Shown piece by piece: positions 1 to 25,929 of a DNA stretch of 64,000 bases (position 1 is its first letter; every line of letters begins with the position of its first letter). Made by a program: the position numbers and the translations under genes. A model generated the notes under the pieces. It worked only from the letters and a program-made list of their open reading frames with translations. It ran no database searches and was not told the DNA's origin. This DNA is from Nocardia sp. (GTDB taxonomy: Bacteria > Actinomycetota > Actinomycetes > Mycobacteriales > Mycobacteriaceae), in NCBI GenBank assembly GCA_014360565.1, contig JACIXH010000002.1, positions 1 through 64,000 on the forward strand, in the 5' to 3' direction.

Positions 1-299
1 GACGGGCATCTCGAACTGATTAGCCGCTCATGTTCGATTGTCCACCGAAGATCCGACCGCCTGCCACCGGACAGTGTCGCGTACACACTGATAGGTACCG
101 ACGACGGCTGGAGACCAGGTGACGCGGACCCCAACGGCTGTGGACGAGCGGCGCGCTAGCAGAGGAGGGTTGGGGCGAATTCTTGGGGTTCTCTTGTCGA
201 TTGTCGACGGCGCGTGAATACTGACCCCCGCGTGGCATCTGAAATCTGACCCCCTTGGTCGGTCACCCTGACTCAAACCGAGCCAGGGAGGACGAAGGG

Positions 300-1544
300 A
301 TGCTAGCCGTGGAAGATTGGGCTGAGATTCGTCGTTTGCACCGGTCAGAGGGTGTTCCGATCAAAGCGATCGCCCGGCTGATGGGCGTTTCCCGCAACAC
401 CGTGCGCGCCGCCCTGGCCTCGGACAGGCCACCGAAATACCAGCGACCCGCCAAAGGCTCGATCGTCGACATGGTTGAGCCGCAGATCCGCGAGTTGCTC
501 AAGGTCTATCCCACGATGCCCGCGACGGTGATCGCCGAGAGGATCGGCTGGACCCGCTCGATCCGGGTGCTGTCGAACCGGGTCGCTGATCTGCGCCCGG
601 CGTATTTGCCTCCGGACCCGGCGTCGCGGACCGCCTATGTCGCCGGTGAGATCGCCCAGTGTGATTTCTGGTTCCCGCCGATCGAGTTGCCTGTCGGGTT
701 CGGGCAGGTCCGCGGCCCGAAACAGCTACCGGTGTTGACGATGGTGGCGGGCTATTCACGCTGGTTGATGGCGATGCTGATCCCGACCCGGCATGCCGAA
801 GACCTCTTCGCCGGGTGGTGGACTCATATCCACCGATTAGGTGCGGTGCCAAGGGTTTTGGTGTGGGACGGCGAGGGAGCGATCGGCCGGTGGCGCGGTG
901 GCCGCAGCGAACTGACCGCCGATTGCCAAGCGTTCCGAGGAACGTTGGGCGCGAAGGTGATCGTCTGCAAGCCAGCCGACCCCGAAGCGAAAGGCATGAT
1001 CGAACGCGCTCACGATTATCTCGAGCGGTCGTTCCTGCCGGGCCGAACATTCACCGGCCCAAACGATTTCAACGACCAGCTCGGTGAATGGCTCGGGTTG
1101 GTGAACGCTCGACCGCGGCGCGCGCTGGGATGCGCGCCGACCGACCGGATCACCGGCGACCGCCAAGCGATGCTGACGTTGCCGCCGATCGCACCGGAAA
1201 CCGGGTGGCGGCGATCAGCCCGGTTGCCGCGCGATCACTACATCAGGTTCGATTCCAACGACTACTCGGTGCACCCGTCGGTGATCGGTCGCCGCATCGA
1301 GATCGTCGCCGACCTGCACCAGGTGCGGGTGTTCTGCGAGGGCAGGGTGGTCGCCGATCACGAACGGATGTGGGCATGGCATCAAACCCTGTCCGACCCC
1401 GACCATGTCGAGGCAGCGAAGATGTTGCGGCGCAGCAGGATCGGTGTCATCCGACCGGGCGTAGAACCGCAGGTCGAACAGCGGTCTTTGACCGACTATG
1501 ACACCGCGCTGGGCATCATCGATATCGAAGGCGGGGTGGCGTGA
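300..1544 (+). CDS. istA: IS21 family transposase IstA
   Basis: N-terminal HTH (IKAIARLMGVSRNTVRAAL), DDE integrase region (AGEIAQCDFW, VLVWDGEGAIG, DPEAKGMIERAHDYLE); overlaps istB start; start chosen at ATG 300. Confidence 0.95.
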   Translation: MLAVEDWAEIRRLHRSEGVPIKAIARLMGVSRNTVRAALASDRPPKYQRPAKGSIVDMVEPQIRELLKVYPTMPATVIAERIGWTRSIRVLSNRVADLRPAYLPPDPASRTAYVAGEIAQCDFWFPPIELPVGFGQVRGPKQLPVLTMVAGYSRWLMAMLIPTRHAEDLFAGWWTHIHRLGAVPRVLVWDGEGAIGRWRGGRSELTADCQAFRGTLGAKVIVCKPADPEAKGMIERAHDYLERSFLPGRTFTGPNDFNDQLGEWLGLVNARPRRALGCAPTDRITGDRQAMLTLPPIAPETGWRRSARLPRDHYIRFDSNDYSVHPSVIGRRIEIVADLHQVRVFCEGRVVADHERMWAWHQTLSDPDHVEAAKMLRRSRIGVIRPGVEPQVEQRSLTDYDTALGIIDIEGGVA

Positions 1545-2362
1545 TGACCGCGAGAGCCCGATCCTCCACCACGAAATCCTCCACCACGACAAGAGATTTC
1601 GCTGCTGAGTTGAACTTCTTGACTCGGGCGTTGAAGGCGCCGTCGTTGCGCGAGGCCGCGCAACGGCTACCCGAACGCGCCCGCGCCGAGAACTGGACCC
1701 ACGAAGAGTTCCTCGTCGCTTGCCTGCAGCGAGAGGTCTCGGCCCGTGAGTCCCACGGCGGCGAAGGCCGGATCCGGTCGGCTCGGTTTCCTTACCGGAA
1801 GTCGTTGGAAGAGTTCGACTTCGATCACTCCCGCGGCTTGAAACGCGACGTGATCGCCCATCTGGGGACCCTGGACTTCGTCACCGCGAAGGAGAACGTG
1901 GCATTCCTGGGCCCACCAGGAACGGGGAAAACGCATTTGGCGATCGGGTTGGCGATCCGCGCGTGTCAGGCGGGGCACCGGGTCGCGTTCGCGACCGCGG
2001 CCGAGTGGGTTGCCCGTCTGGCCGAGGCCCACCACGCGGGCCGGTTGCAGGCCGAGTTGATCAAACTCGGCCGTTACCCGCTGCTCGTGGTCGACGAGGT
2101 GGGCTATATCCCGTTCGAGAACGAGGCCGCGAACCTGTTCTTCCAGCTGGTGTCCTCGCGTTACGAACGCGCCTCGCTGATCGTGACGAGCAACAAGGTC
2201 TTCGGTCGGTGGGGCGAGGTCTTCGGCGACGACGTCGTCGCCGCGGCCATGATCGACCGCCTCGTCCATCACGCCGAGGTCATCGCCCTCAAAGGTGACA
2301 GCTACCGGCTCAAGGACCGTGACCTCGGTCGCGTTCCTTCTGCCGGCACAACTGAAGACTGA
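1541..2362 (+). CDS. istB: IS21 helper ATPase IstB
   Basis: Walker A GPPGTGKTHLAIGLA, Walker B LLVVDEVGYIPF, typical IstB sequence. Confidence 0.95.
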   Translation: MMTARARSSTTKSSTTTRDFAAELNFLTRALKAPSLREAAQRLPERARAENWTHEEFLVACLQREVSARESHGGEGRIRSARFPYRKSLEEFDFDHSRGLKRDVIAHLGTLDFVTAKENVAFLGPPGTGKTHLAIGLAIRACQAGHRVAFATAAEWVARLAEAHHAGRLQAELIKLGRYPLLVVDEVGYIPFENEAANLFFQLVSSRYERASLIVTSNKVFGRWGEVFGDDVVAAAMIDRLVHHAEVIALKGDSYRLKDRDLGRVPSAGTTED

Positions 2363-4518: not shown

Positions 4519-4587
4519 TTCAAGGCAGTCTTGAAATGTCGATGTCGAGGCTATACGATCAGTTCACTGTTTCAAGACAGTCTTGAA
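4519..4587. promoter_or_regulatory. Twin palindromic operator around a putative promoter
   Basis: TTCAAGGCAGTCTTGAA (4519-4535) and perfect dyad TTCAAGAC-A-GTCTTGAA (4571-4587), 52 bp centre to centre; TTGAAA (4531) and TATACG (4552) could be -35/-10. Confidence 0.7.
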
Positions 4588-4628: not shown

Positions 4629-4838
4629 ATGACCACCACCGTCGCCTGCCTCCACTGCACCGACCGGCTCCGCCCCGCCGGACGCGGCGCGTTCCCCACC
4701 GCCCCGGTCCACGTCGGCACCGGCGACACCGCCTGCCACAACCGCCGCGACGACACCGCCGAGGCCGATCTGTGGGGCATCCAGCCCACCCTGGGCACCG
4801 ACTGGCTGTTCGAGCGCCACCCCGACTACACCTCCTGA
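4629..4838 (+). CDS. Small CxxC protein
   Basis: 69 aa, ACLHC ... ACHNR; first ORF downstream of the twin operator. Confidence 0.65.
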   Translation: MTTTVACLHCTDRLRPAGRGAFPTAPVHVGTGDTACHNRRDDTAEADLWGIQPTLGTDWLFERHPDYTS

Positions 4839-4871
4839 CCGCCGAACCCCACACAGCAGAAGGGATTCCAG

Positions 4872-5204
4872 GTGAACAACGACACCACCCTCGAAAAGGT
4901 CGGCACCGATCGACTGCGCCCCGGCGACGTCCTCGTCGACGACCGCCCGCGACTTGTGATCGACCGCCCCATCGACACCATCTCCCTGCCCACCGGCACC
5001 GTGTTCCGCACCTGCGCGCGCATCGACAACTGGAGCGAGCTGGTCGACGACGCCCGCGCGAACGACGCCGACGGAATCGTCAACAGCGCAGCGCAGTTCA
5101 TCACCCGCCGCACCGGTCACGACGACGAGCACCGCTGGACCATCCAAGGCAACGCCATGGCCACCTGGTGGCGCGAAACCACCCCCACAACGCTGCCGCG
5201 CTAG
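4872..5204 (+). CDS. Hypothetical protein
   Basis: 110 aa ORF, co-directional cluster, high GC third-position bias. Confidence 0.65.
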   Translation: MNNDTTLEKVGTDRLRPGDVLVDDRPRLVIDRPIDTISLPTGTVFRTCARIDNWSELVDDARANDADGIVNSAAQFITRRTGHDDEHRWTIQGNAMATWWRETTPTTLPR

Positions 5205-5375
5205 TTGTTTGCCTCGCGCCCGGCCAGACCGGACGCGGAACTGACCACTAGAGCCCCAACCCCACGCACCCGCCGGTGCGCCCACCGCGCTCACACCGTC
5301 CTGGCCACCCTGCCCGCACTCGGTCATAGCACCGCCCGGCACCGCGTTCCCACACCGCACCCCAAGGAGATCCGC

Positions 5376-6347
5376 ATGCCCACCATCGATATCCGCCGTC
5401 ACGGCAACGACATCCTCATCCCCTACGGCACCTTGACCCAGCTCGCCGGACACACCATCACCAACGACCATCTCGACCGGCTCGCCGACCGCGCCCTGCC
5501 GAACAGCAGCCTGCGCAACGTCCTTGGCACCGTGCTCGACTCCCTGCTCACTCCCGACGAGTTCAACCAGGTCCACGAGGAACTGGGTGACCCGTTCGCC
5601 GGGCAGGCCCCGCCCCGGGCGCCCGCTCCATGCGAGGGCCGCGACGCCGCTGTCCTGGCCGCGCTGCGCGCGATCCAGATCGAGCACGACGGCGAACCAT
5701 TCATCGTCGGCGACTCCGACGCCGCGACCGCCCGCGACCTCGCCTACCTCGATCGGCTCATCGAAGCCCTGGACCTCGGCGGCGACGAGGCACCCGCTCC
5801 CACCCCGCAGTACAACCCCGACCAGCACAATCTCTACCGAGCCCTGCTGGAGACCGCTCGAGCACACGTCGGACTCGACGTCGACGCACTCACCCAGATC
5901 CATGGGCTGGTCGCGGCCCTGACACCCGACACCGGCCAGCCCGAGTGCGACTGCCCTGCCGAAGCACGCCACCTGATCTCCCACGTCTGGGTGCCCCACC
6001 AGCAGACCTGCCCGCACGCCGAACCCCGCGTCTGGATCTGGGCGATCGGGGGCGTCCCGCGCACCGGCATCCTGGCCCGCTACGCCCAGACCTGGAAAGA
6101 ACTGCGCGCCAACGGCACCGAGGCCCTCGCCGAGCTCAGCACCGAGCTGCGGACCTGGGACGGCCACCGCGCCACCGTCACCATCAGCGAGGACCACACC
6201 AGCGCGTTCTGGGAGGACTACAAGTTCCGCGCCGACCGCGAATCCACCACCGTCCGCATCCGCGTTCCCGCCGAGGACGACGGCGACGACGGGGACGAGG
6301 ACGAGGACGAGGACGGCTTCTGGCCCGACGAGCACGACGAGCTCTGA
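5376..6347 (+). CDS. Hypothetical protein with acidic C-terminus
   Basis: ATG after AAGGAGA RBS; 323 aa; C-terminal DDGDDGDEDEDEDG. Confidence 0.75.
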   Translation: MPTIDIRRHGNDILIPYGTLTQLAGHTITNDHLDRLADRALPNSSLRNVLGTVLDSLLTPDEFNQVHEELGDPFAGQAPPRAPAPCEGRDAAVLAALRAIQIEHDGEPFIVGDSDAATARDLAYLDRLIEALDLGGDEAPAPTPQYNPDQHNLYRALLETARAHVGLDVDALTQIHGLVAALTPDTGQPECDCPAEARHLISHVWVPHQQTCPHAEPRVWIWAIGGVPRTGILARYAQTWKELRANGTEALAELSTELRTWDGHRATVTISEDHTSAFWEDYKFRADRESTTVRIRVPAEDDGDDGDEDEDEDGFWPDEHDEL

Positions 6348-6438
6348 GCACGCCGAGGACGGGCGGGGCCGAAACCTACTGCGGCCCCGCCCCTTTCACC
6401 CCCACCTACCCAACCTGACACCGCCGGAGGCCGCCGCG

Positions 6439-7461
6439 ATGCACACAGAAGCCACCTTGACCAGCGGTGATGACATGTCCCCCGTGTGGCTTGCCGCGGC
6501 GTCCGTCGCCGAGCACTCGCCGACCCCGTGGACCCGCAGCCACGACGATCTCGATCCGGCGCGGCGGATGACGTTCTATCTGGGCACCGGCCACCCCCAC
6601 CACCTCAACACCTCTGGGGTGCCACTGTTCTTGTCCGCGGCCGCGCTCGCCCGCTACCGCGGCCGGGGTGAAAGGTTCCCCATCCGGATGACCGGCGGCG
6701 CGCCGTGGGCCGGTGACAGCGGCGCCTACGCCGCCCTCATCCTCTCCGCCAACCCCAACGGGCACCCCTGGACCGCCCACCCCGACGACTACGGCGCCCT
6801 GTGGACCCGGCTCATCGACAGCATCGGACCACCCGACTTCGTCGGCATACAGGACCTGCCCTGCGAAGCACAGTGCCTGGCGCGCACCGGCGCGACCGTG
6901 GCCGAACAGTTCCCGCACGTGCCGTGGCTGCGCACCCTTCAAGGCTGGCACCCCGACGACTATGTCGACCACTACCTGATGTACCTCCAAGCCGGAGTCT
7001 CGATGACCGGGGAGACCGTCGGCATCGGCAGCGTGTGCCGCCGCGGCTCCCAGCACGCCGTCGCCGAGGTCGTCGAAACCCTCGCCCCACTCGGCATGCG
7101 ACTGCACGGCTTCGGCCTCTCCTTGGGAGCACTGCGCCTCATCGGACATCAGTTGTCCAGCAGCGACACCCAAGGGTGGTCCTATACCGCGCGCCGCCAA
7201 CACATCCGGCTACCCGGCTGCACCCACACCACCCGCCCAGACCCCGTCACCGGCACGCGCACCCCGACCGACTGCCGCAACTGCATCCGCTGGGCACGCG
7301 CCTACCGCGAACGCGCCCTCGACGCCGTCCGCCACGCAGCCGCCACCGCAGCCGCGCGCACCACCACGGCGCCGACGGTCGTCGCCAGCGACCCGGCCAC
7401 GCAATGCCGCGCCGTCGCCCGGCCGCGGCCTGGGTCCCGAGCTATCACCGCGCCGATCTGA
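6439..7461 (+). CDS. TGT-superfamily (queuine tRNA-ribosyltransferase/DpdA-like) protein
   Basis: FYLGTGHPHHL, WAGDSGAYAALIL (TGT DSGG-like motif), PDFVGIQDLPCE, VGIGSVCRRG, C-terminal Cys cluster GCTHTT...DCRNCIRW. Confidence 0.7.
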   Translation: MHTEATLTSGDDMSPVWLAAASVAEHSPTPWTRSHDDLDPARRMTFYLGTGHPHHLNTSGVPLFLSAAALARYRGRGERFPIRMTGGAPWAGDSGAYAALILSANPNGHPWTAHPDDYGALWTRLIDSIGPPDFVGIQDLPCEAQCLARTGATVAEQFPHVPWLRTLQGWHPDDYVDHYLMYLQAGVSMTGETVGIGSVCRRGSQHAVAEVVETLAPLGMRLHGFGLSLGALRLIGHQLSSSDTQGWSYTARRQHIRLPGCTHTTRPDPVTGTRTPTDCRNCIRWARAYRERALDAVRHAAATAAARTTTAPTVVASDPATQCRAVARPRPGSRAITAPI

Positions 7462-24459: not shown

Positions 24460-25215
24460 ATGCCCAAAAAGCCCGAATACCTCTCGATCGCAGACACGCT
24501 GCGAGCCGAAGTGCTCGCCGGCGACTACGACGCCGCGCCACTTCCAGGCAACGGCGAGGTCGCTGAACGCTTCGACGTCAACATGAAGACCGCCGGACGA
24601 GCTGTGCAACAACTGGTCGCCGAAGGCTTGGTGATCGCTCGGCCCGGGCTACGAGCGGTCCCCACCCCGCCCGAACTGCGCGGCACTCGGTGGCCGATGA
24701 ACGGTCGCTATGCCCGTGCCCGCGCCGCGCGCGGACTGGTCTTCGCCGGTGACGTCAGCGGCAACGTCCGCAAGGACACCGTCAGCCGCGAATGGGCACC
24801 CGCCCCACTGCAGATCGCGCACCTGCTCGGCGTCAAAGAAGGCGCACGGGTTATGCGCCGCAACAGCCGCACCTTCATCGACGACGTCGCGACCGAGGAC
24901 ACGATCCTGTTCTTCCCGGAAGCGATCGCCGCAGCCGCTCCCGAACTCGAAACCGCCGACCGCATTCAGGTCGTCGCCCTCATCGAAGACGCCGGGCACA
25001 CCGTGACGCGAACCGCCAACGAGATCCGAGCCCGACACGCCACCACCTCCGAGCAGGAACTGTTCGGCATCGACGCGAACAACATCGTCATCGAACACAT
25101 CCACGGAACCTACGGCGCCACAGGCGAACCGCTCGAAGCCGTCATCAACGTTCGACCCGCTCAAGGCGGCGTCATCACCTTCGACACATACGAAGCACCG
25201 CTCGACAACGAATAG
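24460..25215 (+). CDS. GntR family transcriptional regulator
   Basis: YLSIADTLRAEVLAGDYDAAPLPGNGEVAERFDVNMKTAGRAVQQLVAEGLVIARPGLRA winged HTH; UTRA-like C-terminus. Confidence 0.92.
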   Translation: MPKKPEYLSIADTLRAEVLAGDYDAAPLPGNGEVAERFDVNMKTAGRAVQQLVAEGLVIARPGLRAVPTPPELRGTRWPMNGRYARARAARGLVFAGDVSGNVRKDTVSREWAPAPLQIAHLLGVKEGARVMRRNSRTFIDDVATEDTILFFPEAIAAAAPELETADRIQVVALIEDAGHTVTRTANEIRARHATTSEQELFGIDANNIVIEHIHGTYGATGEPLEAVINVRPAQGGVITFDTYEAPLDNE

Positions 25216-25227
25216 AAGGAGACCCCG

Positions 25228-25929
25228 ATGTCCACCTCCACCACCGCGGTCAGAAACCGGCTGGCTATCGCCCTGGACACCAGCGATCTGGACACCGCGG
25301 TGTCCATCGCCAAAGCTGTGCAACCCGACATCGGCGTCGCCAAAGTCGGACTCCAACTATTCAGCGCGGCCGGACGCGACGCCGTGCGCGCCATCCAGGA
25401 CATCGGCATGGACGTCTTCCTCGACGTCAAACTGCACGACATCCCCAACACCGTCTACGGAGCCAGCACCGTTCTCGGGGCCCTCGGCGTCCAATTCCTG
25501 ACCGTGCACGCAGGCGGCGGAACTGCCATGCTCGAAGCTGCAGTGAAGGGACTGAGCGAAGGCGCGAGCAACGCCGGGTTTGCAGCGCCGACCGTGCTCG
25601 CGGTCACCGTGCTGACCAGCGCGCCCGACGCATCACCGGAACTGCTCAACGAGCGACTGGCCGCCGCTGTCGCAGCAAACTGCGGTGGCGTCGTCTGCGC
25701 GGCCAGCGACCTGTCCGTCATCCGCGCCACGGCACCCGAGATCCTGACCGTCGTTCCCGGAATCCGCCCGGCCGGTGGCGCAGTCCACGACCAACAGCGC
25801 GTCGCAACACCGACCGAAGCGATTCGCAGTGGCGCAAGCATTCTCGTCCTTGGCCGGGCAATCACCGGCGCAGATGACCCCGCCGAAGCAGCGAAGACCA
25901 TCGCCTCAGAAGTCGCACAGGCGAGCTGA
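25228..25929 (+). CDS. pyrF-like: Orotidine 5'-phosphate decarboxylase-family protein
   Basis: FLDVKLHDIPNTV (DxKxxD) and VPGIRPAGGAVHDQQRVATPTEAIRSGASILVLGRAIT. Confidence 0.9.
   Translation: MSTSTTAVRNRLAIALDTSDLDTAVSIAKAVQPDIGVAKVGLQLFSAAGRDAVRAIQDIGMDVFLDVKLHDIPNTVYGASTVLGALGVQFLTVHAGGGTAMLEAAVKGLSEGASNAGFAAPTVLAVTVLTSAPDASPELLNERLAAAVAANCGGVVCAASDLSVIRATAPEILTVVPGIRPAGGAVHDQQRVATPTEAIRSGASILVLGRAITGADDPAEAAKTIASEVAQAS

Follow-up and report, generated by a model that had tools for sequence, protein, structure and literature searches.

A lone DpdA-family gene on a plasmid-like Nocardia replicon and the possible import of its base

Where lone DpdA enzymes obtain their base is a long-standing question; the largest phage group analysed by Hutinet 2019 carries dpdA without synthesis genes (PMC6884629). 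The same question is raised by a gene at positions 6439–7461 (forward strand) of a 64,000-nucleotide stretch of Nocardia DNA, hereafter the window. A preliminary description had seen motifs of the TGT superfamily in the 340-residue product, suggested a relationship to DpdA and proposed that three upstream open reading frames might be its partners. We have considered whether the product is a DpdA, whether this copy is likely to be active and from where its base might come.

Membership of the DpdA family, a suggestion of the preliminary description, is supported by curated profiles and by the conserved catalytic aspartates described below. The protein matches the Pfam DpdA family PF23859 with 123.9 bits (E 8e-36; curated cut-off 27) and phrog_1279, labelled 'queuine tRNA-ribosyltransferase', at 3.7e-38, with no match among the NCBIfam and PADLOC models. 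The TGT profile PF01702 does not match it, the sole match in the genome being the chromosomal TGT on contig C387. Phage records with relatives number 398 (390 from Mycobacterium phages) and plasmid records 56, most of the latter from actinobacteria; a DpdA match occurs in 20 of 152 genomes of the genus. Orthologues in five other Nocardia genomes (L034–L038) share 55–58% identity over the aligned protein and are missing residues 1–43, an N-terminal extension in the window protein. The gene, with a GGAGG ribosome-binding site 8 nt 5' of the ATG, adds one more member to the singleton DpdA group, here on a bacterial replicon.

The motifs reported earlier are all in place: GDSGAY (residues 92–97; 6712–6729, forward strand), FVGIQDLPCE (residues 134–143) and VGIGSVCRRG (residues 194–203), as is the C-terminal cysteine cluster, C261-H263…C279-C282 (7219–7284, forward strand). 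An alignment of 16 diverse DpdA members shows D93, G151, H223 and D243 of the window protein to be invariant. The kinship with TGT had been said to fall if the catalytic aspartate were not conserved; D93 and D243 are each present in 16 of 16 sequences. Asp243, in SSSDTQGW (7165–7167, forward strand), is the putative nucleophile, and is followed by Thr in a column where Ser is nearly invariant. Asp93 of GDSGAY, which aligns locally and weakly in hhalign with DSGGF of TGT, would be the counterpart of the substrate-binding/acid aspartate of that enzyme (FTDSGGF). By this analogy, D93 and D243 would be the equivalents of the catalytic aspartate pair in TGT enzymes. The four residues of the Cys/His cluster are invariant in the window protein and the five Nocardia orthologues, occur in most other relatives and probably form a zinc site.

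The correspondence of the Asp and Cys motifs with those of bacterial TGT is one that we infer. The hhalign comparison of DpdA with TGT was not significant and gave two short motif-level matches in register, at DSGGF and the Cys cluster, with weak scores. A single-sequence AlphaFold2 model reached a pLDDT of 32, too low for the fold to be read, and PDB sequence searches returned chance matches or none. Besides having no PF01702 match, the window protein differs from bacterial TGT in being shorter and in its proposed DNA substrate.

One feature of this copy bears on its activity. The segment HQQATLENYLYLSE of the orthologues is absent between A155 and E156 (nucleotides 6903/6904), that is, between the DLPCE and LQG motifs. 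Relative to other members this is a 42-nt (14-residue) in-frame gap with its junction at 6904–6906 (forward strand), identified from alignments and from the interruption of the Pfam DpdA genome match at profile positions 105/127. Every other canonical full-length relative compared keeps the 14 residues, and among these proteins the gap is unique to the window copy. By analogy with the TGT-like barrel, the missing segment is probably most of one helix, preceding the LQG strand, which leaves the activity of the window protein uncertain. The gap weakens the claim of activity, not that of homology.

The window gene might then have lost its activity through recent damage: a deletion of 42 nt, perhaps between short repeats, would have taken out the barrel helix and left a decaying passenger that came from a phage or an integrative element; the repeat-mediated origin is a guess. 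Such decay would fit a gap seen in no canonical full-length relative compared, and would also fit the pattern at conserved columns: of 66 that are kept by at least 80% of other members, the window protein departs at 12 (three of them deletion gaps), against 1–5 for the five close orthologues. Nor is there reassurance from genome G099, where a closely matching region is 98.5% identical over 16.8 kb; its dpdA differs from the window gene by one synonymous base and, because of this single difference, carries no information on later selection. The reading frame, ribosome-binding site, both aspartates and the Cys cluster are nevertheless intact, the branch leading to the window protein does not exceed the sister branches in length and the number of deleted nucleotides is divisible by three. 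We judge outright inactivation to be less likely than not, although serious enough to keep in mind, and the copy may be a weakened one. Our preference, which is only a little firmer than an even chance, is for a singleton DpdA, a DNA guanine transglycosylase of the TGT superfamily on a plasmid-like replicon, that would use a base imported by the host.

The replicon looks plasmid-like from its sequence. The window lies on a contig of 112 kb from a Nocardia-like genome, the top DNA matches being Nocardia plasmids. Genes of plasmid or phage type, such as one for a HerA-type ATPase, occur on this contig; elsewhere on it, open reading frames resemble, by eye, a polymerase and an ATP-dependent ligase. 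A GntR–pyrF pair at 24460–25929, with about 86% identity to plasmids of Nocardia farcinica, supports a plasmid origin. A transposase gene pair at the left edge of the window (255–2362), as read from the sequence, resembles an IS21-type element. In L034–L037 the orthologous dpdA lies in elements that open with a MazE-like gene followed by an integrase-type gene (Pfam assignments from L035), and a weakly methyltransferase-like open reading frame is positioned 3' of dpdA. The DpdA proteins of L034–L038 share the motifs of the window protein but keep the helix that it lacks. Pairwise dN/dS values of 0.14–0.26 among the Nocardia orthologues indicate purifying selection.

The preliminary description placed dpdA in a small regulated cluster, and this holds in part. 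Three co-directional open reading frames do precede the gene, all on the forward strand and coding-like in GC3 (0.96, 0.90 and 0.89, respectively): ORF A (4629–4838; 69 residues), with a weak match to phrog_30869, ORF B (4872–5204; 110 residues), which belongs to phrog_10286, and ORF C (5376–6347 from its own ATG; 323 residues), with an acidic C-terminus. Upstream of ORF A are two operator-like 17-bp palindromes, TTCAAGGCAGTCTTGAA at 4519–4535 and TTCAAGACAGTCTTGAA at 4571–4587, located by a palindrome search; they share the form TTCAAGRCAGTCTTGAA, and the chance expectation for two such palindromes in 64 kb is 0.01. A sigma-70-like promoter, TTGAAA-17-TACGAT (4531–4559, forward strand), recognized from a consensus match alone, is placed between them. 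Palindromes that flank a promoter-like pair in this position make joint regulation of ORFs A, B, C and dpdA plausible.

A partnership of these frames with dpdA finds no support. None of the three adjoins dpdA in any of the five Nocardia orthologues. ORF B has its relatives among genes of Omegavirus-type mycobacteriophages and on two plasmids, and shares about 43% identity with a gene located close to the genome end in such phages (Baka gp241), while ORF C has no relatives in the profile families or plasmids. Conserved partnership was therefore rejected, and it is plausible from the sequence that ORFs A–C share with dpdA just a promoter region.

Comparison with better-known systems narrows the options. 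In dpd islands (DpdA–K, Salmonella Montevideo type) DpdA is likewise the base-inserting enzyme, but no dpdB, dpdC or restriction gene was found beside the window dpdA (neighbouring genes were profile-scanned; elsewhere in the window, selected genes), and a dpd-island reading was rejected for want of the island genes. DpdA is required for 7-deazaguanine in the DNA of phage CAjan, where the modification blocks restriction (PMC6884629). CAjan, 9g and Rosebush, whose DpdA reaction is presumed to be the same as that of the window protein, encode FolE, QueD, QueE and QueC (PMC6884629); none of these is detectable in the window genome (85% complete). A reading on the lines of these preQ0-pathway phages was rejected, since QueC and QueD were not found over cut-off genome-wide in this 85% complete assembly.

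The absence of preQ0 genes, remarked on earlier for the window, extends to the genome in an assembly that is 85% complete. QueD, QueA and QueF were not detected in it and nothing exceeded either cut-off for QueC. Weak QueC matches of 21–22 bits, below the cut-offs, were taken to be another ATP-pyrophosphatase because most Nocardia give the same short match at profile positions 4–56. In genome G099, scored as 100% complete, QueA and QueF are likewise absent and no QueC match exceeds the cut-off. The host does possess a single TGT and a single transporter for queuosine precursors (VUT/YhhQ), encoded by adjacent genes on a different contig from dpdA; no transporter gene lies beside the window dpdA. 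Given this pair and no detectable synthesis genes, any 7-deazaguanine base would have to be imported. Most of the DpdA proteins in the genus would similarly depend on import, as VUT is present in 151 of 152 genomes and a full-score QueC in six of 152; such a QueC accompanies the DpdA match in two of 20 genomes (G024 and G138). Most Actinomycetota in a gut data set lack QueA and QueG/QueH and are predicted queuine importers (PMC11130926). The specificity pocket of the host TGT, GGALEK, does not settle the identity of the base: published pockets are GG[LS][AS]G for queuine and GGLAVG for preQ1 (PMC11570991), and it fits neither. Queuine would be the most likely import, with preQ1 or preQ0 possible.

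Genes of this kind are found next to such a transporter on other mobile elements. A plasmid search with the VUT protein of one dpdA neighbourhood as the query matched 14 records, and in nine of these a DpdA- or TGT-like gene adjoins VUT or lies no more than about 0.5 kb away; with a query from a linked pair the sample is biased to similar VUT proteins, so this fraction is no estimate for all mobile VUT genes. The linked plasmids are those of Nocardia NBC_01377, Embleya, four Streptomyces (QHH-9511, S. janthinus, NBC_01304 and 11x1), Shinella zoogloeoides, Rhizobium ACO-34A and Azospirillum. Neighbourhoods were read in four of the remaining five, THAF40 being the fifth: VUT adjoins a 7-cyano-7-deazaguanine synthase gene in two, a third is a dpd island that carries queC, queD and queE, and the fourth showed nothing. 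The same linkage occurs in five of six phage records inspected (StevieRay, phiLM21, RHph_N3_2, RHph_X2_30 and Pam5), the sixth, the unannotated scaffold MT837598, having no DpdA-like gene near VUT. Three DpdA-like groups are paired with VUT in this way: PF23859/phrog_1279, phrog_887 and phrog_15826. The last, listed as of unknown function, is a VUT-linked short DpdA-like family of about 190–215 residues without the Cys cluster (L057:5455–6102, L060:4501–5070 and L061:4517–5089); its StevieRay member is annotated as DpdA-like. YhhQ was correlated with no phage group in Hutinet 2019 (PMC6884629) and is present in about 9% of dpd islands (PMC11888242). The recurrence of dpdA-like/transporter pairs across plasmids and phages suggests that lone DpdA enzymes take their base from outside; the window gene is one case of a lone DpdA, perhaps a weakened one.

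These pairs also bear on whether singleton DpdA proteins have changed function, acting on another nucleic acid such as tRNA or exchanging plain guanine, with no 7-deazaguanine placed in DNA. Singleton DpdA proteins form clusters of their own, the DNA of phage Orion is unmodified and functional divergence has been raised (Hutinet 2019; PMC6884629); the host, for its part, already owns a TGT for tRNA. Mycobacteriophage singletons (phrog_1279; Oscar gp44, Milly gp42 and Orion) are of the same Pfam and PHROG family as the window protein, at about 33–35% identity over 77–81% of the protein, and no preQ0 genes were detected beside Oscar gp44 or in the window. The window protein differs in its plasmid-like bacterial replicon, its 14-residue gap and its N-terminal extension. 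The hosts differ also: that of the window has the transporter and TGT, whereas M. smegmatis is without both. The Orion DNA with no detectable 7-deazaguanine came from M. smegmatis, which is without Q genes (PMC6884629). Since the catalytic Asp pair is kept and related DpdA-like genes recurrently adjoin a queuosine-precursor transporter, which indicates a 7-deazaguanine substrate, we consider a change of function improbable.

For an active DpdA supplied by import, we infer the chemistry, substrate, DNA target and benefit as follows, by analogy with characterized DpdA and TGT. Asp243 would attack C1' of the deoxyribose of a DNA guanine, while D93 and D139 would bind the 7-deazaguanine to be inserted, so that bases would be exchanged without lasting strand breakage. 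The base would enter through the chromosomal YhhQ/VUT transporter encoded beside TGT, which normally would feed tRNA, and the likely benefit would be that modified replicon DNA withstands host restriction. A bolder and distinctly speculative extension, to which we give little weight, is that a singleton DpdA and a linked transporter together make up, on mobile elements, a minimal system that hypermodifies DNA by salvage alone; in a host that lacks QueA and QueF, such as this one, queuine itself would be imported and become deoxyqueuosine in DNA. Hutinet 2019 looked for deoxyqueuosine in the DNA of seven viruses and did not detect it (PMC6884629). With the transporter present and the synthesis genes mostly absent, Nocardia would offer a natural test host for imported queuine, preQ1 or preQ0 in DNA.

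Some further features of the neighbourhoods deserve mention. On Roseobacter-group plasmids (L070:1143–2995 and L071:1143–2995), genes for a PfkB kinase, a 7-cyano-7-deazaguanine synthase and VUT follow one another; the short segment examined there showed no DpdA-like gene. PAPS-reductase-type PP-loop genes are near several DpdA-like genes (L076:671–3022, L047:6001–7922, L048:5995–9150 and L055:1–76), and in Rhizobium ACO-34A one is directly 5' of the DpdA-like/VUT pair; such genes could be a partner or merely common on mobile elements. The DpdA of the Nocardia NBC_01377 plasmid (L042:6022–7287), encoded beside VUT, has an extra C-terminal helix-turn-helix-like region.
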